Source of the DNA: Terriglobus roseus
GTDB taxonomy: Bacteria; Acidobacteriota; Terriglobia; Terriglobales; Acidobacteriaceae
DNA length: 64,000 bases
NCBI RefSeq assembly: GCF_900105625.1
Contig: NZ_FNSD01000001.1
Location: forward strand, 3,534,001 to 3,598,000
Direction: 5' to 3'
Of the stretch, positions 3,298 through 19,741 are shown one piece after another. Numbering within the stretch: position 1 is the first letter of the stretch; the number at the start of each line of letters is the position of its first letter. Under the pieces are notes generated by a model. The model was not told where the DNA came from. It worked only from the letters and a program-made list of their open reading frames with translations, and made no database searches. The translations under genes and the position numbers were made by a program.

Positions 3298-4431
3298 ATG
3301 AATCGTCTGGTTGTCGGCAATCTCGTCCATCGTCCCCTGCGCTCGTTGATCTCGGCGCTTGCAGTGACCATTGAAGTCGTCATGATCCTGTCCATCGTTG
3401 CCATCATGCTGGGTATGGTGAACGGGCAGAAGTTGCGCACCAATGGAATCGGTGGCGATATCATCGCCAAACCCGGCGCAGCATCGAACCTGATTGGAGT
3501 AAGCGGGGCCCCCGCGTCTGCAAAGGTGGGGCTCGTGCTTGCGAAACTGCCACACGTCAAGGTGGCTGCACCCATCTACATCCAGTTGACAACGTCTGCG
3601 GGTGCCGTCGAGAACATCTTCGGCATCGACTATTCGACCTTTAACGCCTTGACGCCATTCGTGTTCGTGGAAGGGGGCCCGTTCTCTGGCCCAGATGACA
3701 TCATTGTTGACGATGTAGCGTCGCACGGTTCGACGGATGGCCCTGCGATGCGGGGCAAGAGCTTCCACGTCGGAGAAACAACCAAGCTTCTAGGCCATGT
3801 CTTTCATGTCTCGGGGGTAGTGGTGCATGGCAGAGGCGGCCGAAAGTTCATTCCGCTAGACACAATCAACGCAATCAACGGGACGGACAACCGTTGCAGT
3901 GTCTTTTATCTGAGGACAGAAGATGCTCCGAAGTGGCAGAAGGCCGTTCGCGAAGAAATTCAGGCGACGGAAGGTATGCAGCAATGGGATGTCCAAACGC
4001 TGGACGAGCTCCTGAGTCAGATGACCCCTGAGAAGTTCCCAGGATTCAATATTGGCCTCAGCGTTGTAATCGGAATCGCAGTTGTTATCGGCTTCCTGGT
4101 GATCTTCCAATCCATGTACACGGCAGTAATGGAACGCACCCGCGAGATCGGCATCCTTAAGTCACTGGGAGCTTCCAAGGGATACATCGTAGGAATCGTG
4201 TTGCGCGAGTCGGGCCTATTGGCTGTTTGTGGTGTCGTCGCGGGCGTTGCAAGCACATACCTGTTACGTGCGATTCTTCACATCAAGGCGTCACAGTTGG
4301 AGTTTGAGGTCACGCCCGCATGGGTCGCCAAGGCCGCGGCGATCGCGATCGTGGGCGCCTTGCTCGGTGCCCTCTACCCGGCCTTGAAGGCTGCCAGTAA
4401 AGATCCGATCGACGCGCTTTCCTACGAATAG
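3298..4431 (+). CDS. FtsX/MacB-family ABC transporter permease
   Basis: 377 aa. There is an N-terminal membrane helix (residues about 15-38), a periplasmic domain of about 220 residues as in MacB, then three helices containing the FtsX-family signature ERTREIGILKSLGAS (from about residue 278), where the permease couples to an ATPase. Such permeases work in lipoprotein transport, efflux or mechanotransmission. No ABC ATPase gene lies next to it or elsewhere in the window, so its partner must be encoded elsewhere. The ATG at 3298 is preferred over the TTG two codons before. A bidirectional terminator follows. Confidence 0.85.
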   Translation: MNRLVVGNLVHRPLRSLISALAVTIEVVMILSIVAIMLGMVNGQKLRTNGIGGDIIAKPGAASNLIGVSGAPASAKVGLVLAKLPHVKVAAPIYIQLTTSAGAVENIFGIDYSTFNALTPFVFVEGGPFSGPDDIIVDDVASHGSTDGPAMRGKSFHVGETTKLLGHVFHVSGVVVHGRGGRKFIPLDTINAINGTDNRCSVFYLRTEDAPKWQKAVREEIQATEGMQQWDVQTLDELLSQMTPEKFPGFNIGLSVVIGIAVVIGFLVIFQSMYTAVMERTREIGILKSLGASKGYIVGIVLRESGLLAVCGVVAGVASTYLLRAILHIKASQLEFEVTPAWVAKAAAIAIVGALLGALYPALKAASKDPIDALSYE

Positions 4432-8976: not shown

Positions 8977-9005
8977 TTGACTCCCATCCAGACCTCCGTT
9001 ATCCT
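8977..9005 (+). promoter_or_regulatory. Promoter for rplM-rpsI
   Basis: TTGACT (8977-8982), a 17-base spacer and TATCCT (9000-9005). Transcription would begin near 9012, so the first nucleotides form the hairpin GCAGAC-TCGC-GTCTGC (9016-9031), leaving a leader of about 285 nt before rplM. Confidence 0.7.
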
Positions 9006-9011
9006 AAGAAC

Positions 9012-9295
9012 TCGCGCAGACTCGCGTCTGCATACCTGTGCTTTTCGGAGCTGCGGGAATGCGGATGCGGCGACGCGGTGGATCCTGCGGGACGTCAGTT
9101 GGCTTGAACACAGCCTCTGCGCAGGTTTCCGGAGCAGGCGGCCAGGCAGTATCGGTTGCGGCAGACGGAAACGGTCTCACACAGCACCCACTCGCATTCA
9201 GCGGATCTAGCCCCGTAAGGGGTGCTTTGCGTGTGCACGACATTGGTTGAGTTGTAATTAGAAGTTCAGATTTTGGTTGTTAGAAGGAAGACTCG
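9012..9295 (+). promoter_or_regulatory. Structured leader of the L13-S9 operon
   Basis: A transcribed leader of about 285 nt without a convincing gene. Near its 3' end a CCCC-GTAA-GGGG hairpin (9211-9222) competes with pairing of AGCACCC (9183-9189) to GGGTGCT (9220-9226), because both use the same G run. Ribosomal-protein leaders often bind a product of the operon to switch expression; that role here is inference. Confidence 0.45.
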
Positions 9296-9730
9296 ATGTC
9301 GACGTTTGTACCCAGTTCGAATGATACGAACCGCAAGTGGTATGTGGTGGACGCTACGGGGAAGACCCTGGGCCGCCTCGCCAGCGGTGCCGCGCGTGTG
9401 CTGAGCGGCAAGAACAGCACGCAGTACACCCCCTACATTGATACCGGTGACCATGTCATCGTCATCAACTGCGAAAAGATTGTGCTGACCGGCCTCAAGG
9501 CCCAGCAGAAGCTCTATCGCCGTTACACCGGTTTCCCCGGCGGTCTTCGTGAAGAAGAGTTCGTCAAGCTGCTCGCGCGCCGTCCCGAAGCAATCGTGGA
9601 ACAGGCCATCAAGGGCATGCTCCCCAAGACCAAGATGGGCCGCCAGATGGCGACTAAGCTGAAGGTCTACAAGGGCGATAAGCACCCCCACGATGCACAG
9701 ATGCCCGAGCCGCTCGTAGTTTCGGCGTAA
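9296..9730 (+). CDS. rplM: 50S ribosomal protein L13
   Basis: 144 aa, the normal length. Characteristic segments are [19 protein letters not shown] (residues about 10-28), the YTGFPGGL region and the C-terminal [14 protein letters not shown] and [12 protein letters not shown]13 is an early assembly protein of the 50S subunit that binds 23S rRNA. It is first in a two-gene operon with rpsI, 24 bases downstream, the classical bacterial arrangement. The ATG at 9296 follows AGAAGGAAG. Confidence 0.98.
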
Positions 9731-9754
9731 CCGTTCAGAAGGAAAGATAGAGAC

Positions 9755-10150
<396 letters not shown>

Positions 10151-10169
10151 TTGCTTGGTGTATCTACTG

Positions 10170-10197
10170 CGGCGGATGATCTTCGGGTCATCCGCCG
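10170..10197 (+). terminator. Hairpin with UUCG tetraloop after rpsI
   Basis: A 12-bp stem (10170-10181 with 10186-10197, one G-T pair) closed by a C(TTCG)G tetraloop. It lacks a strong T-run, so it may terminate weakly, protect the upstream mRNA, or act as part of the rpsB leader. Confidence 0.6.
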
Positions 10198-10290
10198 TAA
10201 AGTTGTAAAACCTCCAGGAGTTCAATCTCCCAGACGAACGGGATCAATCCCGGCCTGATCCGCCGGGATGCCGCATACAAGGAGCCTCAC

Positions 10291-11214
10291 ATGGCATCGA
10301 TCACAATGAAGGAACTGCTCGAAGCGGGCGTTCACTTTGGTCACCAGACCAAGCGCTGGAACCCCAAGATGAAGGAATACATCTTCGGCGAGCGCAATGG
10401 CATTTACATCATCGACCTGCAGAAGACGCTGAAGATGTTCAAGGAAGCGTCCAAGTTCGTCACCGAGCTGACCTCTTCGGGCAAGCTGATCCTCTTCGTC
10501 GGCACCAAGCGCCAGGCACAGGATGCAGTCGCTGAAGAAGCGACCCGCGCCGGCATGCCCTACATCAACAGCCGCTGGCTGGGTGGTCTTCTGACGAACT
10601 GGGTAACCTGCCAGAAGTCGGTCAAGCGCCTCGCAGAGCTGGACGAGATGGCTGTCGACGGCCGTTTCGAGCTGATGACGAAAAAGGAAGTCATCAAGCT
10701 GGAGCGCGAGCGCAAGGCTCTGCACACGAATCTGGCCGGCATCAAGAACATGCGCCGCCTGCCGGACGCGATCTTCGTCATCGATTCGAACAACGAAGCC
10801 ATCGCCGTCTCGGAAGCACGTAAGCTCGGCATCCCGGTTGTTGCAGTCGTTGATACCAACTGCGATCCGACCGTGGTCGACTATGTGATCCCCGGCAACG
10901 ATGATGCTCTGCGCGCCATCCGCCTGTTCACCACCAAGATCGCCGATTCGGCCTTCGAGGGTGTGCAGATGATTGGCGACAAGTCGATCGCCAACGAGTA
11001 TGCCGATGTGGTGCCGGTTGCGACCGAAGCACACTTCATCGGTCTCGAAGACGAGGAAGCGCAGGAGTCCAACCCGGTTGCTACCACCCCGGTGGAGCAG
11101 GCTGAAGAAGAGACTGTTGATCTCAACGCAGCTCTGGGCGGTGGCATCAAGAAGCAGGCTGCATCCGACACCGAGACTGAGGCAGAGCCCGTCGCAGTCG
11201 AAGCCGGCGCGTAA
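10291..11214 (+). CDS. rpsB: 30S ribosomal protein S2, with a long acidic C-terminal extension
   Basis: 307 aa against about 240 in many bacteria. The S2 core is clear: [22 protein letters not shown] (N-terminus), [14 protein letters not shown] and [12 protein letters not shown], followed by the usual [10 protein letters not shown] helix near residue 220. After about residue 245 comes an acidic extension rich in Glu, Thr and Ala. S2 completes the 30S head and is needed for Shine-Dalgarno interaction. It is paired with tsf about 100 bases downstream, the standard rpsB-tsf order. Start ATG 10291 after AAGGAG. Confidence 0.97.
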
Positions 11215-11313
11215 GCTTCTCCGAAACGATTCAACGGAGAGCGTGGCTGCCGCCTATGGCACCACGCTCTTTCTGTGTACAGCTACTGTTTCAAAACCGT
11301 AAAGGATATGACG

Positions 11314-11979
11314 ATGGCGACCGAGACCCCTGTAAAGATTGATGCGAAGCTGGTAAAGGAACTGCGTGAGAAGTCCGGCGCGCCCATGGGCGACTGCCTG
11401 AAGGCGCTGCAGGAAGCTGGCGGCGACATGGAGAATGCATTCGTTGTGCTGCGCAAGCGCGGCATGGCGTCGGCAGCGAAGAAGGCTTCGCGCTCCACCA
11501 ACGAAGGCGCTGTGGGGAACTACATCCACGCCGGCGGCAAGATCGGCGTCATGCTGGAACTGAACTGCGAGAGCGACTTCGTTGCCCGAACGGAAGACTT
11601 CCAGGAACTGCTGCGCGACATCTCGATGCACATCGCGGCGGTTGATCCGCGCTTTGTGGGCCGCGATGAAGTGACGGAGGCTGACGTCGAGCGCGAGAAG
11701 GAGATCTACCGCGCCCAGGCTGCTGCTACCGGCAAGCCCGCAAACATCATCGAGAAGATGCTCGAAGGCAAGATGGGTAAGTTCTACGAGGAAGTCTGCC
11801 TGCTCGATCAGCCCTTCATCAAAGAGCAGTCGCAGACCGTGGCGCAGGTCATCGCAACCAAGGTCGCAAAGCTCGGTGAGAACATCACCGTCCGCCGCTT
11901 CGCACGCTTCAAGATCGGCGAGCCCAACGCCACCTTCGCACAGGCGAAGATCGTGGCGACCGAAGAAGCTGCTTCGTAG
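11314..11979 (+). CDS. tsf: Elongation factor Ts
   Basis: 221 aa, a short-form EF-Ts. The N-terminal UBA-like domain carries KELREKSGAPMGDCLKALQEA, and the EF-Tu contact motif appears as GVMLELNCESDFVARTEDF (about residues 72-90). The protein exchanges GDP for GTP on EF-Tu. The ATG at 11314 is chosen because AAAGGA lies 7 bases upstream; the ATG at 11308 is two codons earlier and too close to that site. It shares a likely transcript with rpsB and ends at a strong terminator. Confidence 0.96.
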   Translation: MATETPVKIDAKLVKELREKSGAPMGDCLKALQEAGGDMENAFVVLRKRGMASAAKKASRSTNEGAVGNYIHAGGKIGVMLELNCESDFVARTEDFQELLRDISMHIAAVDPRFVGRDEVTEADVEREKEIYRAQAAATGKPANIIEKMLEGKMGKFYEEVCLLDQPFIKEQSQTVAQVIATKVAKLGENITVRRFARFKIGEPNATFAQAKIVATEEAAS

Positions 11980-11997
11980 CTAATTCTCAAGACGGCA

Positions 11998-12026
11998 AAG
12001 GGGCCCGGCGAAAAGCCGGGCCCTTT
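11998..12026 (+). terminator. Intrinsic terminator after tsf
   Basis: A stem of about 12 bp (11998-12009 with 12015-12026, one G-T pair), GAAAA loop, ending in TTTG. Confidence 0.85.
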
Positions 12027-12058
12027 GTCATGTAGGCGACGCTCACTTGATCGGTACC

Positions 12059-13222
12059 ATGCGAGTGTTAGCAATGCCGTGTCAACCGATTGTGGGTTCA
12101 ACTGCACGTGACAAACTGCTCGTTACCACCTTTGTTTTACTTGCCGCGGTTGAAAGCATTGTGGTCGCTGAGGCGCATGGTGGTCACGGCATCCTGGGTG
12201 CACTCCTCTATGCCATGATGCTGGGGGCGGCGGTCTCCTGGCTGCTCCTGCGAGCCCACGGGGATAACTTTCGCAGGGTGTTTTCATCGCGTGTCTTCTG
12301 GATTTCGATTGTCCTGTTGATAGGCGTCCTTGCTGAGAAGCATTACCTTTCGACGCTCGGGATTCAGAACCGCATCAGTACAGCAAAGGCGTTGGAATTT
12401 CCGGCACGTGCACTCCTGTTGCACGGTCACGACCTTTACAGTGTCACTGCGGGTGAGACGCCCATCAGCCCTGGCCCGGGCTGGATCATCTTGTGGGCTC
12501 CGCTCAGTATCTTCAATCTCACCGCGTTCATCCCAGTGTTGGCCCTGCTTTTTGCATACGGTGTGCTGTTCCGACGCGACAGGGTGCGGGCTGGCCTTTT
12601 TGCGCTCCTGATGCTCGTGCAGATGCTGTTCCTCTCCGAGATGCGAAACGGGCAGGATCTCTTTGCGATCTCGCTGATGCTGGTCGCGCTGGCTCTTCTG
12701 CTGGAGGACGCGCCGGTCTCCAACCACCACCTCGTCTTGTTGGGTGTGCTTGGCGGAATCATCGCGTCGGCCCGTATCCCCATGATCATCATGACCTCTC
12801 TCATCGGCTTAGGTCTCTGGCGCCGAGATCGTAGAGTGGGCACGATCTTTCTCGCTCTCAGCGTTGGAACAGCGATGGTTTGGCATGGCCTCTTCTACCT
12901 GTGGGCTATCTATGACGGCGACTGGTATCAGCCTCTGCATGTACTTGGCCGTGCGTCGCGTGCCGGGAAGAAGCCACGCCTTCTGTCGATGTCTGCTCTG
13001 CCCGTCGTCCTGATGGGGATTTATCGCAGAATGGGTAAGACTTCCATGACGTGGCTGCTCTCCACGTTCCTGCTCATGATCACGCTCTTCGCGCCCGTTG
13101 GTATCGGCGAATACCTGGAGAGCCGTCAGCTCGATTGGGAGGGCGCCAACTACATCGTCTTCCCGGTGCCGCTTCTCCTCACGTACATCCTCTTTCACAC
13201 GTTGCAACGGAGAGATGCGTGA
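12059..13222 (+). CDS. Polytopic membrane protein, intact copy of a tandem pair
   Basis: 387 aa with about nine hydrophobic segments. Recognisable internal motifs are FPARALLLHGHDLYSV, ISPGPGWI, NGQDLFAISL, ASARIPM and, near the end, LDWEGANYIVFP. The general look (a conserved first loop with a Tyr/Ser pair and a Pro-rich entrance) recalls GT-C/DUF2029-type membrane glycosyltransferases, but I cannot place it firmly. The paralogous copy at 13591-14777 shares all these motifs and is frameshifted. Start ATG 12059; a TTG at 12047 is also in frame. Confidence 0.6.
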   Translation: MRVLAMPCQPIVGSTARDKLLVTTFVLLAAVESIVVAEAHGGHGILGALLYAMMLGAAVSWLLLRAHGDNFRRVFSSRVFWISIVLLIGVLAEKHYLSTLGIQNRISTAKALEFPARALLLHGHDLYSVTAGETPISPGPGWIILWAPLSIFNLTAFIPVLALLFAYGVLFRRDRVRAGLFALLMLVQMLFLSEMRNGQDLFAISLMLVALALLLEDAPVSNHHLVLLGVLGGIIASARIPMIIMTSLIGLGLWRRDRRVGTIFLALSVGTAMVWHGLFYLWAIYDGDWYQPLHVLGRASRAGKKPRLLSMSALPVVLMGIYRRMGKTSMTWLLSTFLLMITLFAPVGIGEYLESRQLDWEGANYIVFPVPLLLTYILFHTLQRRDA

Positions 13223-13260
13223 AGACTTGCGAATGAAAACTGGCAGCAGTCACGGTATCA

Positions 13261-13355
13261 AGCGCCAGCTTCTGCCCCGCTGCGGTCTCATACGGCAGCG
13301 TGTGTGCGGCATCTCCATTCACGATTAGTCACCGCCGGTCCACTCTACTAGCGGC
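13261..13355 (-). repeat. Decayed remnant of the hydrolase 3' end (duplication copy 1)
   Basis: About 95 bases, roughly 80 percent identical by eye to 14717-14806, which encodes the C-terminus of the alpha/beta hydrolase. In translation the remnant gives LIV..DAAHTLPYETAA against LIVIEDAAHMLPYEAAA in the intact gene, with a stop and no start. It shows that the membrane gene plus hydrolase unit was duplicated and this hydrolase copy was lost. The rest of 13356-13590 holds nothing else I recognise. Confidence 0.75.
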
Positions 13356-13590
13356 CTTAGGAATCACTGCTGCTGTGTCACCCCAGCGCGAATCCGCGAT
13401 CGTGACAGAAAAGTTCCAAGCTTGGACGGCCCGCAGCTCACCCCGTTTCTATCCCTCAACGTTTTCCTTGATCTTCGCTAAGACCTCGTTCGTCTGGAGC
13501 TGACCCATCACCACTGCATTCTATGCACCCCCACGGAAACATCTCTCGCTTCTGCTTGCCTTCGGCGCGTTTGCTTACGTAGAGTCCTTC

Positions 13591-14777
13591 ATGTTCCCAG
13601 CGGCGCACTGGCATCGCGGTATGTTGGGTGGCACGATTTATCTCCTGCTGCTGGCACCTTTCATCGCGTGGTTTTTTTACGTCCCTCACCACCCCCGGAT
13701 GATTCGCTGCCTTTCGACTGCGGCTGTATGGGGCGCAATACTCTTGCTCTTCGCCGCCGTAGACCAAAAGCAATTCCTGCACAACCAATTGCTGTCGGAT
13801 CCCGGCAGCACCGCGAAGGGGTTGGAATTGCCGGCCAGGGCCCTTCTGCTTCATGGTCACGAACTCTACAGTGTGGACGCGATCGGAACTCCGGTCAGTC
13901 CTGGGCCGGGATGGATCCTGCTGTGGTCTCCCATCACTTTGGCCGGCTGGACGGGCTTGCTGGAAGTGATCACCTTGGCGATCACGACGTGGCTTATCTA
14001 TAGCCGCCACCGGCTTGCCGCTGGAGTCTTCTGCCTGCTCATGCTGCTTCTGCCTCTTTTCCATCGCATCATGTCCGGAGGGCAGGATCTGTGGGCGATC
14101 TCGCTGGCGTTCGTTGCGCTGGGACTTGTCATGGACAACACCTGTGAGTCGGACTCGCAAACAGTCCTCGTTGCATTGCTCGCGGGGACAGTCGCCACCG
14201 CGCGCGTTCCGATGCTCTTGCCGCTCCTTGTCCTGGGCTTCGGACTTCATCGGAAGAATCGGCGCGCAGGAAGCATTTTTCTCCTGGTCATGACCATCAC
14301 TGCCATGACCTGGCACATTTCATTTGCGGCTATTGCGCACCATGCCGGCCACCTGTACCAGCCGCTGCACGTACTAAGAAGGGCCGGTCGCGCAGGGACC
14401 TGGAACCGCGTCTCTGCGGCCGTACTTTGTGTCGGCTGCTTTGGCTGGTGCTACAAGAAGATCACTGACGATATAAGAACGTGGCTCACGGAGCCTTCCT
14501 TATGATGGAGGTTCTCTTCGCTCCCACCGGGATCGCGGAAGGTTTACACGATTTACGTCTGGACTGGGAGGGCGCGGGTTACATCACCTTCCCGATGCCA
14601 CTGCTGGTGGCTGCAATCGCCCTCTATATCCGTCGACAAGCCATGTTGCGGGTCGATGCACACACCTCCGAACCTACGTTGCCTTCGCCAGCTGGACAAT
14701 TGTCGTTTCCAGAGCCAGCGCCAGTTCCGCTGCGGCCTCATACGGCAGCATATGTGCGGCATCTTCGATCACGATGA
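13591..14777 (+). pseudogene. Frameshifted second copy of the membrane protein
   Basis: Paralog of the gene at 12059: LPARALLLHGHELYSV, VSPGPGWIL, GGQDLWAISL, ATARVPM and LDWEGAGYITFP follow in the same order. The first frame stops at 14505. The remaining homology (FLMMEVLFAP onward) continues in another frame from about 14496. Alignment to the intact copy needs one missing base at 14494-14495, a single-nucleotide deletion. Homology also begins upstream of ATG 13591 (from about 13535) without a start codon in that frame, so the 5' end is damaged too. The 3' end runs into the hydrolase gene on the other strand. Confidence 0.75.
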
Positions 14778-15438
14778 GTCGTCCGCCGGCACGTTCAACC
14801 AGCGGCAGTGTGTATTGCCGCTGAAAACTGAGTGGGATCGCTTCATCAAACTCACCGACGATGAGAGTCGTCGGTAAGAGAAAGTGCTTCACGCGTCCGG
14901 ACCAGTCTTCTTTCGTGCCATGTTCCACCCAGGCACGCCAGGCTTCGTGGTTCGCTCGCTCTACGTCGGCGATGCCGATGGCGATGTCTTCGTCGGTCAT
15001 CGTGCGGTGTGCGCCATTCTTCACAAAAGCTTCTGTCCGTGCTCGCGTCGTATTTGCGAGGAGCATGGTCTCGCGCGCCTCTGCGGTCATGGGTTCGGGC
15101 TGCAGCGGCGACGGCGCCACGAGGATCAACTGCGTCAAGTTCGGCGGCGGGGCTGCCGCCAACACCATGCCGACCTTTCCGCTGAGCGAATGTGCCACCA
15201 GCACCACCGGCGACGGTGCAAAGGACTCCACCAGCGTCTGCACTTGTGCGCACATTTCACTCACCGTGTAGCCGCGAAGCTCGGCGGCATCCCCAAAGCC
15301 CGGCATGTCAGCGGCTACGCATCGGTACTGCAAGGACATGCGTTCCATTACGTGGCGCCACTCGTGCTGGGAACTGCCGAAGAAGTGCAGGAACAGGAGG
15401 ACTGTGTCGCCGGTGCCGGTTTCGCTGTAGGGAAGCAT
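14674..15438 (-). CDS. Alpha/beta hydrolase
   Basis: 254 aa from ATG 15438 (MLPYSETGTGD); the longer frame to 15510 adds a non-homologous N-terminus. Triad candidates are Ser in AHSLSGKVG (near residue 94), Asp in GEFDEAIP and His in DAAHMLPYE. The motif order matches small esterases and hydrolases of the 3-oxoadipate enol-lactonase/MhpC type, and the substrate cannot be read from sequence. It converges with the frameshifted membrane gene and overlaps its readthrough end by about 100 bases. A remnant of a second copy lies at 13261-13355. Confidence 0.85.
   Translation of the reverse strand: MLPYSETGTGDTVLLFLHFFGSSQHEWRHVMERMSLQYRCVAADMPGFGDAAELRGYTVSEMCAQVQTLVESFAPSPVVLVAHSLSGKVGMVLAAAPPPNLTQLILVAPSPLQPEPMTAEARETMLLANTTRARTEAFVKNGAHRTMTDEDIAIGIADVERANHEAWRAWVEHGTKEDWSGRVKHFLLPTTLIVGEFDEAIPLSFQRQYTLPLVERAGGRLIVIEDAAHMLPYEAAAELALALETTIVQLAKAT
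14717..14806 (-). repeat. Duplication copy 2: intact hydrolase C-terminal segment
   Basis: Partner of the repeat at 13261-13355, here inside the intact hydrolase gene and covering its catalytic His region. Confidence 0.75.
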
Positions 15439-15632
15439 TCGTCTTGGGATGAAGGAAGCCGTCGTGCTGGCGCATGTCGTAGCGCGGAATCTGGGCGGAT
15501 GTGGGCGCATTCCGATGGCATCAACAGAGGCCCATTGCTTCTGCGGTTTGACTCACATTGCGATCGCGACCGCAATGTGTCGCCGTAGCTCGGCACATCC
15601 CGCTTCCTGCGTCGGCATCTCACCACCAGATC

Positions 15633-16283
15633 ATGAGCGAGACACTGTTACCTATCCTCAGTAATCGAGCCGTGCTTGAGCGCACGTCGGACGCGACGCG
15701 TCGTGTTCTGGAAGATCGTGCCCGACCGACCGATCCCGCTCTGCGTTATTTGTCTCCGGAACTCTACGCAACGTTGCAGCAGGTCGTGGCGGCAGTGCTG
15801 CCGCAGGATGCCATCGGAACGGACGTGGATATCGCTGCATCGATCGACGAGCGGCTGCGCAAGGGGACCAATGCCGGCTGGCGCTTCGCCGACTTGCCGT
15901 CAGACGGCGAAGCCTATCGCCAGGGACTGTCTGTGTTCGCGATGATGCTGGAGCAGACGCCTATGAAGCACTTTGAGCGTATGCCACCACCTGCGCGGGA
16001 GGGATATCTACGCTGCGTGGCCAAAGGTGATGTGGATGGGCCCGCACAGTTTCCTCTCTCGCGATGGTTAAGCATGTTACGCACTGATGTCGTGAAGGCG
16101 TGGCTGTCTCATCCCTCCACGATGGAGAAGCTTGAGATCTACAGCTTCGCGGATGGCAGGACCGGTGCTACCGACGGACCGACCGAAAGCGAGGGATGGC
16201 AGGCGACAACGCCGAACAGGTCTCTGTCATTTGAGCAAGGGGTCTCGGCATCAGCGGCTTCCGTCACGGAGCGTGGCGCATGA
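15633..16283 (+). CDS. Gluconate 2-dehydrogenase subunit 3 family protein
   Basis: 216 aa. Segments RYLSPELYATLQQVVAAVLPQD and IDERL match the small (gamma) subunit family of membrane-bound gluconate and related dehydrogenases, which helps the flavin subunit fold and reach the periplasm. Unlike many members, this copy shows no twin-arginine signal at the N-terminus. It overlaps the GMC oxidoreductase by 4 bases (ATGA at 16280), so the two are translationally coupled. Start ATG 15633. Confidence 0.8.
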   Translation: MSETLLPILSNRAVLERTSDATRRVLEDRARPTDPALRYLSPELYATLQQVVAAVLPQDAIGTDVDIAASIDERLRKGTNAGWRFADLPSDGEAYRQGLSVFAMMLEQTPMKHFERMPPPAREGYLRCVAKGDVDGPAQFPLSRWLSMLRTDVVKAWLSHPSTMEKLEIYSFADGRTGATDGPTESEGWQATTPNRSLSFEQGVSASAASVTERGA

Positions 16284-17842
16284 AGAAGCCGTTGGATATG
16301 CGTACGTTTCAGAATGACGAAGTCGTCGATGCTGTTGTGATTGGCACTGGCGCTGGTGGAGCGCCTTTGCTTTGGCGGCTGGCACGCGCGGGTCTTCGCG
16401 TAGTGGCGCTTGAAGCCGGCCCATGGTTTGAAAATCCCGCAGAAGACTTCGCCTCGGATGAGATCGGTGCGAGCAAGATTTACTGGACAGACGAACGTCT
16501 CTCCGGCGGCGCAGATCCAACGGCCTTTGGTGGAAACAACAGCGGTACCGGCGTGGGAGGCAGCACGCTCCACTACGGAGCTTACGTGCCGCGTCCGGAC
16601 GCACGCGATCTGAAACTGAAGAGCAGCGATGGCGTCGCCGTGGACTGGCCGGTAACCCTTGAAGAGTTGACGCCATACTTCCAGGAGGTCGAGGAGTTCC
16701 TCGGCGTGTCCGGTCCTGCGAAGTATCCCTGGGATCCAGCGCGCAAATATCCTCTGCCGCCACTGCCGTTAAACAGCTCGGCGATCTACATGGCAGTGGG
16801 CGCCGAGGCCATGGGGATCCGTGTAGCGCATGCCCCCATCGCGGCGACATCACACACCTATACGCGGCCGGAGTACGGTACACGCAACGCATGCGTCAAT
16901 CGTGGGTACTGCCACCAGGGCTGCCGGAACGGTGCCAAGGCGAGCATGGACGTCACGTATCTTCCAGCCGCATTGAACGCGGGCGCAGAGATTCGCGAAG
17001 ATAGCTTTGTGCATGGAGTAGATCGTGATGCGCAAGGCCGTATCTCTGCAGTCCTGTACACGGACAAGCAGGGGAATGAGCGACGTCAACTTACCAGCAA
17101 TGTCTTCCTGTGCGCTGGTGGAGTTGAGACGCCTCGGCAGTTGTTGCATTGGAATCTCGCGAACTCCAGCGGGATGGTTGGCCGTAACTTCATGGCGCAC
17201 ATCTCCACGCAGGTATGGGCAACCATGAACGCGGAGACCAGGCCGTATAAAGGATTTCCTGCGTCACTGATCACGGAAGATTTCATGCGCGCGAAGGATG
17301 CCGACTACGCCGGTGGTTATCTCCTGCAGAGCTACGGCACGCTGCCGCTATCCTGGGCGGAGCAGGTGGTACACGGGCGTAATCTCGTTGGCCAGGCGCT
17401 TGTCGACTATCTCTCGCGGTACAACAACGTGGCGGGCATCGGCATGAATGGCGATACGCTGCCGCAGATGGACAACCGCATCACGCTCTCCAGTGAGAAG
17501 GATGCGCGAGGCCTGTCGAAGCCGCTTATCACCTTCTCACTCTCGGAGAACGAGAAGAAGATGAGCGCACATGCTGAATCGAATATGCGCCGCATCCTGA
17601 TGGCCGCTGGCGGCAAGGACCTTTGGAGTTCCCAACGCACGGCACATACGATCGGCACATGCCGCATGGGGACGGATGCGGGGGAGTCGGTGGTGAATTC
17701 CGTCGGTCGCAGCTGGGATGTTCCGAATCTTTATATCGCGGATAACTCGGTCTTTCCGACGTCGCTTGCGGCCAATCCTGCGTTGACGATTATGGCTCTA
17801 TCGCTGCGAACGGCCGATGCATTTCTTGGCGCGGATCATTGA
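16280..17842 (+). CDS. GMC-family FAD oxidoreductase (sugar/alcohol dehydrogenase large subunit)
   Basis: 520 aa. The FAD-binding Rossmann motif VIGTGAGGAPLLWRLARAG is at about residues 20-38, the GMC signature GTGVGGSTLHYG at about 90, and the C-terminal HTIGTCRMG plus NPALTIMAL carry the catalytic His/Asn region. It oxidises a sugar, polyol or alcohol and passes electrons to a carrier; relatives pair with the small subunit upstream and a cytochrome c subunit. No cytochrome gene lies nearby, so the electron acceptor is unknown. No signal peptide is visible; export would depend on the partner. Confidence 0.9.
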   Translation: MKKPLDMRTFQNDEVVDAVVIGTGAGGAPLLWRLARAGLRVVALEAGPWFENPAEDFASDEIGASKIYWTDERLSGGADPTAFGGNNSGTGVGGSTLHYGAYVPRPDARDLKLKSSDGVAVDWPVTLEELTPYFQEVEEFLGVSGPAKYPWDPARKYPLPPLPLNSSAIYMAVGAEAMGIRVAHAPIAATSHTYTRPEYGTRNACVNRGYCHQGCRNGAKASMDVTYLPAALNAGAEIREDSFVHGVDRDAQGRISAVLYTDKQGNERRQLTSNVFLCAGGVETPRQLLHWNLANSSGMVGRNFMAHISTQVWATMNAETRPYKGFPASLITEDFMRAKDADYAGGYLLQSYGTLPLSWAEQVVHGRNLVGQALVDYLSRYNNVAGIGMNGDTLPQMDNRITLSSEKDARGLSKPLITFSLSENEKKMSAHAESNMRRILMAAGGKDLWSSQRTAHTIGTCRMGTDAGESVVNSVGRSWDVPNLYIADNSVFPTSLAANPALTIMALSLRTADAFLGADH

Positions 17843-17953
17843 TACCTTATGTCTGACTGCTGGCTGTCCGCGAGCGCGAAGATGTGTGTACTCGCGCGTA
17901 GCGCATCACGCAAAGCGCCGCGACACAGCGCAGATACAGGGTTGAACAAGACG

Positions 17954-19741
17954 ATGAAGAAAAAGGTCGTGGCGGCGCAGGATGTAGCGCGGATTCCGTG
18001 GGACGCGCTAAAGCGTGAGGCGAAGAAACGCTTCGGTGTCACGGCCTTTCGTTCCGTTCAACGTGAGGTCCTGGAGAGCGTGCTGGGCGGCCACGACACG
18101 CTGGCCATCATGCCAACGGGCGCAGGGAAGTCCCTGACCTACCAACTGCCGGCGCTCTTCCTGCCGCATACGGTTCTCGTCGTATCCCCGCTGATTGCGC
18201 TGATGCAGGACCAGCAGCAGAAGGCTGCCGCTGCTGACATCGCCGTCAGCAAGATCGACTCAACACTGACCAGGTTGCAAAGGGAAGAGGCCGATGCCGC
18301 ACTGCGCGCAGGCCTGCCCAGGCTGCTGTATGTCACACCCGAGCGGCTGCAGAATTCCAAATTTCTTGCGGAACTGAAGGGCGCGGGTGTCTCGCTCTTC
18401 GTTGTCGATGAGGCGCACACCATTGCGCAGTGGGGCCACGATTTCCGTCCTGCCTATCTTGGCCTTCGATATGCACGCAAAGAGCTGGGAAATCCGCCGG
18501 TGCTTGCCGTTACAGCGACGGCAACGGATGAAGTCATTCAGGAAATTCTCGAACAACTCGATGCGAAGCATGCGCGCGTGATCAGTGCAGGCAGCGAGCG
18601 GACGAATCTTTACTTTGCCGTGCACCCAACGGTCAACAATGATGCGAAGCTCGCCCGCCTGGTCCAGATGATTTCGAACGAGCAGGGCAGCGGCATCGTC
18701 TACACCGCATCGGTAAAGTCCGCGAATGATCTGCTCGAACGCTTCCGGGAGGCGGGCATTTCTGCTGGTCATTATCACGGCAAGATGGGCAAGCGCGAGC
18801 GAGAAGAGGCTCAGGCTGATTTCATGGCCGATAAGTACAAGGTTATGATCGCGACGAAGGCGTTCGGACTTGGGATCGATAAGCCAAATATTCGTTTTGT
18901 CTTTCACTACGAATTTCCGGACTCGCTGGAAACCTACTATCAGGAGGCTGGCCGCGCCGGACGCGACGGTCTGCCGGCGAGTGCGGTCCTGCTCTACCGA
19001 CTCGAGGACCGGCGCATCCAGAGTTTCTTCTCCGCAGGCCGTTACCCTGGCAGGGAGGACCTGCGGAAGGTTCTCGAGACTCTCTCGGCGCGTGAACCCG
19101 TACCTGCTCAGCTGCTGGCCGAACGAGCGGATGTGGGCAAGCGCCGGGCCGAGGTCATTCTGTTCCTGCTGCGCGAGAATAAGGCGGTCCGGCGGCTTCG
19201 CGGCGGCTATGTGCTGCGGTACGACGAGCCGATTACGGATGCGCACGTTGAAGCGCTGCTCACCTCGTACAGCGAACGTGCCGATCACGACAAGTCGCGT
19301 CTCGACGAAATGATGCATTATGCGGAGACGGTCGACTGCCGCCGCCAGGTATTTCGCCGGTACTTCAACGAGCCCGAGGGGGATCCCTGCGGCAACTGCG
19401 ATAACTGCATTAATAACGCAGCCGAGATGCGTGCCGCAGCACAGCTGCATGCGACGGAAGGCCTGCAGGGCGTAACTCGTGTGGAGACGCTCTCAGGCAC
19501 CATCATGAGCACTGCTCCGGAAACTCTGCCGAAACCCGAGGTCGACACGGGTTTCGATCCGGGAGACAGGGTGCGTCACAAACGTTTCGGTATGGGGAAA
19601 GTGCTGGATCTGCAGGACGATACGCTCCTGATCCGGTTCGACAAGGAGGGCACGCGGAAATTGAAGGCGGCGTTCATACGACACGCACGTGCTTTCGTTC
19701 CGACGGGAAATGCTGCGGCGAAATCTGACACCGTGGCTTGA
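17954..19741 (+). CDS. recQ: RecQ-family ATP-dependent DNA helicase with UvrD-like C-terminal tail
   Basis: 595 aa. The SF2 helicase core has MPTGAGKSLTY (Walker A, about residue 53), VVDEAH (Walker B, about 151), TKAFGLGIDKPN and YQEAGRAGRDG. A RecQ zinc-binding region with four Cys follows (VDCRR to CGNCDNC, about residues 461-485). In place of a normal HRDC domain, the tail (about 535-580) reads GDRVRHKRFGMGKV and ends TRKLKAAF, closely like the C-terminal Tudor-like tail of UvrD/PcrA. It unwinds DNA in repair and recombination. Start ATG 17954; the upstream extension to 17849 is poor. Confidence 0.9.
   Translation: MKKKVVAAQDVARIPWDALKREAKKRFGVTAFRSVQREVLESVLGGHDTLAIMPTGAGKSLTYQLPALFLPHTVLVVSPLIALMQDQQQKAAAADIAVSKIDSTLTRLQREEADAALRAGLPRLLYVTPERLQNSKFLAELKGAGVSLFVVDEAHTIAQWGHDFRPAYLGLRYARKELGNPPVLAVTATATDEVIQEILEQLDAKHARVISAGSERTNLYFAVHPTVNNDAKLARLVQMISNEQGSGIVYTASVKSANDLLERFREAGISAGHYHGKMGKREREEAQADFMADKYKVMIATKAFGLGIDKPNIRFVFHYEFPDSLETYYQEAGRAGRDGLPASAVLLYRLEDRRIQSFFSAGRYPGREDLRKVLETLSAREPVPAQLLAERADVGKRRAEVILFLLRENKAVRRLRGGYVLRYDEPITDAHVEALLTSYSERADHDKSRLDEMMHYAETVDCRRQVFRRYFNEPEGDPCGNCDNCINNAAEMRAAAQLHATEGLQGVTRVETLSGTIMSTAPETLPKPEVDTGFDPGDRVRHKRFGMGKVLDLQDDTLLIRFDKEGTRKLKAAFIRHARAFVPTGNAAAKSDTVA

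Follow-up and report, generated by a model that had tools for sequence, protein, structure and literature searches.

The window analysed here is a stretch of 64,000 nucleotides from Terriglobus roseus (contig NZ_FNSD01000001.1, positions 3,534,001 to 3,598,000), and all coordinates below refer to it. On this Terriglobus chromosome, the gene order is tsf, an intact membrane protein gene (mem1), a scrap of a hydrolase 3' end, a filler of 137 bases, a second membrane gene (mem2), a convergent hydrolase gene and a gluconate-dehydrogenase/GMC gene pair. Paper searches for this locus gave nothing. The left anchor is tsf (elongation factor Ts; 11314-11979, plus strand), whose protein is 99.5% identical to the one at the same place in G011, the closest relative, and which is followed by a terminator hairpin at about 11997-12030. 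The DNA similarity to G011 extends on the tsf side to about 12025 and then ends; within tsf itself, the third-position divergence from G011 revealed no breakpoint along the gene. At the right end lie the genes of a gluconate 2-dehydrogenase subunit 3-like protein (15633-16283, plus strand; Pfam PF13618, 3.3e-10) and of a GMC-type oxidoreductase (16280-17842, plus strand; partial matches to the NCBIfam models of cholesterol oxidase and choline dehydrogenase), both of which are conserved neighbours of the hydrolase by synteny.

The mem1 gene (12059-13222, plus strand) is an open frame of 387 amino acids with hydrophobic segments, and its hydropathy indicates a multi-pass membrane protein. Searches of Pfam and NCBIfam assigned it to no family. 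The LIC_10190 family membrane protein (NF047510) resembles mem2 and its homologue in the relative G016 through weak partial matches (22.7 bits, E=3.6e-5, and 15 bits, E=0.0075, respectively), but both lie far under the curated cut-off of 100 bits, and mem1 gave no match to this model. A structure prediction of mem1 from a three-row alignment had a mean pLDDT of 43 and was discarded as too poor for a fold search.

The first-pass annotation described a broken homologue downstream of the membrane gene at 12059, and this was confirmed. The homologue, mem2 (13513-14680, plus strand, start approximate), encodes a protein about 42% identical to mem1 over a near-full-length alignment, and the local alignment of 12105-13375 with 13532-14823 scores 447, where shuffled sequences reach at most 134. 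A one-base frameshift breaks mem2 at about 14486-14495, where the frame reads RTWL and then TEPSL and a stop, and the other frame resumes as GAFLMMEVLFAPTG. The reported damage at the 5' end is also real. The homology to the intact G016 gene, to which mem2 is 61-62% identical over its length, sets in near residue two or three, where there is no ATG, GTG or TTG, and 13591 is the first in-frame ATG. Because the homology starts at this residue, a junction is placed at the mem2 start codon. The mem2 gene is a pseudogene, and the missing start codon supports this independently of the frameshift. A perfect 5-bp hairpin (GGCTC-ACG-GAGCC) lies at 14483-14495, exactly on the frameshift, and both a real slip and a read error are plausible there. 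The differences between mem2 and the G016 gene number 103/64/203 by codon position (p=1e-28), and this strong third-position bias suggests that mem2 was under long purifying selection, was functional until recently and was lost only of late.

The alpha/beta hydrolase gene (14674-15438, minus strand) is intact, as claimed earlier (Pfam Abhydrolase_6, 5.8e-17; 63.5 bits over residues 38-264, against the PF12697 gathering cut-off of 26.3 bits). A longer open reading frame extends to 15510, and the start was taken as 15438 because the orthologues begin at the same MLP/LLP residue. The remnant of this gene behind mem1 survives proper alignment: in a whole-genome search, 13255-13355 matches the hydrolase 3' end at 77% (E=6.4e-15) and is its only other match in the genome, with a score of 88 where shuffled sequences reach at most 25. 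As a feature, this truncated copy spans 13255-13363 on the minus strand, is 77-78% identical to 14705-14815 and has small indels that break the frame. It differs from its own hydrolase at 10/34 third positions and 13/70 first plus second positions; by codon position the differences are 4/9/10, without a significant third-position bias (p=0.22), a pattern consistent with little or no coding constraint since its origin. The absence of repeat ends and mobile genes, noted in the first-pass annotation, holds for the latter, since no transposase-like open reading frame and no strong inverted repeat was seen at 9000-19000, but mem2 is itself flanked by direct repeats, namely the scrap and the hydrolase 3' end.

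Between the scrap and mem2 lies the filler (13376-13512), for which searches of the own genome and of relatives, among them 11 comparisons with the intergenic regions of relatives, the own hydrolase body and mem1, gave no convincing match. Its best score, 23.0 with the G011 hydrolase region, is weak over 11 comparisons, with a shuffled maximum of 22.5. On the minus strand, a short open peptide, NAVVMGQLQTNEVLAKIKENVEG, at 13452-13520 resembles a gene end; as such it was rejected, with no match in 30 relatives.

The tsf neighbourhoods of 13 same-genus genomes were compared. G011, G010 and G004 have tsf, about 190 bases, the convergent hydrolase, the gluconate-dehydrogenase subunit and the GMC gene, inside which the G004 contig stops. 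The same hydrolase set is found some kilobases farther from tsf in G001 and G018. No membrane gene stands beside the hydrolase in any of these five. The opposite case is G016 (Terriglobus sp. NGEE_A_bin12 MAG; L045/L055), where a single intact membrane gene and then pyrH come after tsf, and where a hydrolase of this type was not found in the 80% complete genome. This membrane gene is like mem2 in family, in its site behind tsf and in sequence, and differs in being a single intact copy that has pyrH instead of a hydrolase behind it. Because the hydrolase occurs alone in five relatives and the membrane gene alone in G016, the hydrolase is a neighbour of oxidoreductase genes and has no fixed link with the membrane gene. 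In G016 (L045), the membrane gene, which lies between tsf and pyrH, is followed by genes for an acyltransferase-like membrane protein and for a protein like a type II secretion/pilus ATPase, both named by eye from their translations.

The relatives also give a measure of the ages of the two halves. In a maximum-likelihood tree of five membrane protein sequences with G392 and G518 as the outgroup, mem2 and the G016 gene are sisters with 100% support (62% identity) and mem1 falls outside the pair; forcing mem1 and mem2 together costs 18 log units, and this topology is rejected (AU p=0.015). As the tree holds five sequences and its outgroup branches are long, mem1 may have been drawn to the outgroup by long-branch attraction. 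Measured from one shared node, the mem1 branch is 0.70 and the path to mem2 is 0.80; to the outgroup G392, mem1 is 30.6% identical, mem2 26.9% and the G016 gene 28.0%, so mem1 has not evolved faster. In the species tree, G016 lies just outside G000 and G011 with 92% support. Assuming vertical inheritance of both mem2 and the G016 gene, the split of mem1 and mem2 would predate the split of the G016 species.

The scrap is younger. Over the hydrolase stretch that matches the scrap, the third-position differences from the own copy are 21/37 in G010, 20/37 in G004 and 14/37 in G011. The scrap is 78% identical to its own hydrolase and 72% to that of G011 (informative sites, 12 vs 6), which makes it about as old as the G011 split or younger, and younger than the pair of membrane genes. 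Its third-position distance is 0.37, with a 95% range of 0.16-0.67, as only about 104 alignable bases leave wide age limits. The membrane genes differ at 197/312 third positions and 251/624 first plus second positions, and the hydrolase pair is less diverged (third positions 29% vs 63%, p=0.0002; first plus second positions, p=0.0004). On these comparisons, the two halves of the supposed unit differ in age, and one duplication event is insufficient unless gene conversion later renewed the scrap only. Of the marks of a recent segmental duplication, the same gene order is present in both copies, but the two parts are not equally diverged (0.63 for the membrane genes, 0.29 for the hydrolase) and the copies are not each other's closest relatives, mem2 being sister to the G016 gene.

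The first-pass annotation read the locus as a tandem duplication of a membrane-hydrolase unit in which each unit had kept a different member. The homology and the colinearity stand, with a hydrolase 3' end within tens of bases of a membrane gene 3' end twice; the duplication of one unit is at odds with the tree and with the unequal ages. Complementary retention is unsupported, since the "units" differ in age and the hydrolase lives without the membrane gene in five relatives; the pattern is better read as a truncated junction piece and one recent pseudogene. The locus is a compact case in which an apparent fresh tandem duplication resolves, through relatives, into homologues of different ages, and it cautions against reading complementary decay from one genome.

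Our preferred explanation, to which we give a probability of roughly one half, is that recombination or insertion joined mem1 and mem2 and left a scar of an ordinary kind. The two genes would be old divergent members of a rare family occupying the site behind tsf, and the resident mem2 would have adjoined the hydrolase before the event. A fragment that carried mem1 plus a hydrolase 3' end would then have been placed between tsf and mem2, the hydrolase scrap probably being truncated from birth. The junction would have cut off the start codon of mem2, the frameshift would have come afterwards, and mem2 would have decayed. We infer that the event was an import from a related strain, as opposed to an internal rearrangement, in which direction it went and which of the two mem2 lesions came first. 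The arrangement resembles xenologues or divergent paralogues in tandem of which one copy is a pseudogene, as left by ordinary gene gain through recombination beside a resident homologue, in that divergent homologues adjoin, one is decaying and the presence among close relatives is patchy; it differs in that no donor or mobile element was identified here and that the junction carries a scrap from a neighbouring gene. Several points weigh against insertion. No donor genome that combines tsf, mem1 and hydrolase is available, and no genome with mem1 in the same flank occurs among those searched (one genome per species). The filler has no known source. The age limits of the scrap are wide, and G011 is not much more distant on the same stretch. 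Moreover, a unit duplication would give the same colinear membrane gene-hydrolase order in both halves, and the position of mem1 in the tree may owe something to the long outgroup branches.

A recent tandem duplication of mem2 with the hydrolase 3' end, followed by replacement of the left mem2 through recombination with mem1 as a divergent allele, would account jointly for the young scrap, the old split of mem1 and mem2 and the colinearity, and fits nearly as well as insertion. It calls for two events when a single import would be enough, intermediates were not found, and we regard it as an unlikely but serious alternative. A recent tandem duplication of the whole membrane-hydrolase unit in this lineage, after which mem1 would have changed fast and the remaining members decayed, is rather unlikely: the colinear halves speak for it, as does a scrap nearer to its own hydrolase than to that of G011, which would place its origin in or near this lineage, but mem2 is nearer to the G016 gene than to mem1, and mem1 would require a branch about four times that of mem2, yet it resembles G392 more than mem2 and the G016 gene do. 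If the unit was duplicated before the G016 split, with both copies inherited here and lost elsewhere, the tree is accommodated and a later gene conversion would give the scrap its young look; this we hold to be quite improbable, as both genes must have disappeared from the majority of the 19 genomes searched within the genus and the conversion must be confined to a stretch of 110 bases. That mem2 is intact and its frameshift a sequencing error is very improbable, for although a single indel on a small hairpin and the strong past constraint on mem2 would suit an error, the start codon is missing too.

The locus is a real but ordinary scar of genome wear. Nothing points to a vehicle, as the membrane family had no match in viral contigs and plasmids. 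The gene order to the right of tsf varies widely among Terriglobus genomes. One could speculate, with little confidence, that the site behind tsf is a recurrent exchange point in Terriglobus at which whole divergent membrane protein alleles are swapped between strains, one swap being caught half done. In that view the family would be a fast-changing one, its alleles exchanged like those of surface proteins on which diversifying pressure acts. Members of the membrane family are rare: a search of 399 class and 398 family genomes, two samples that overlap, gave clear full-length ones in this genome, G016, G392 and G518 only. The genes in G392 and G518 have unrelated surroundings. The one in G392, which is of another genus, is a distant family member (L068, 2256-3449), beside which a weak partial match at 3783-3854 (E=0.0035) is possibly another tandem remnant.
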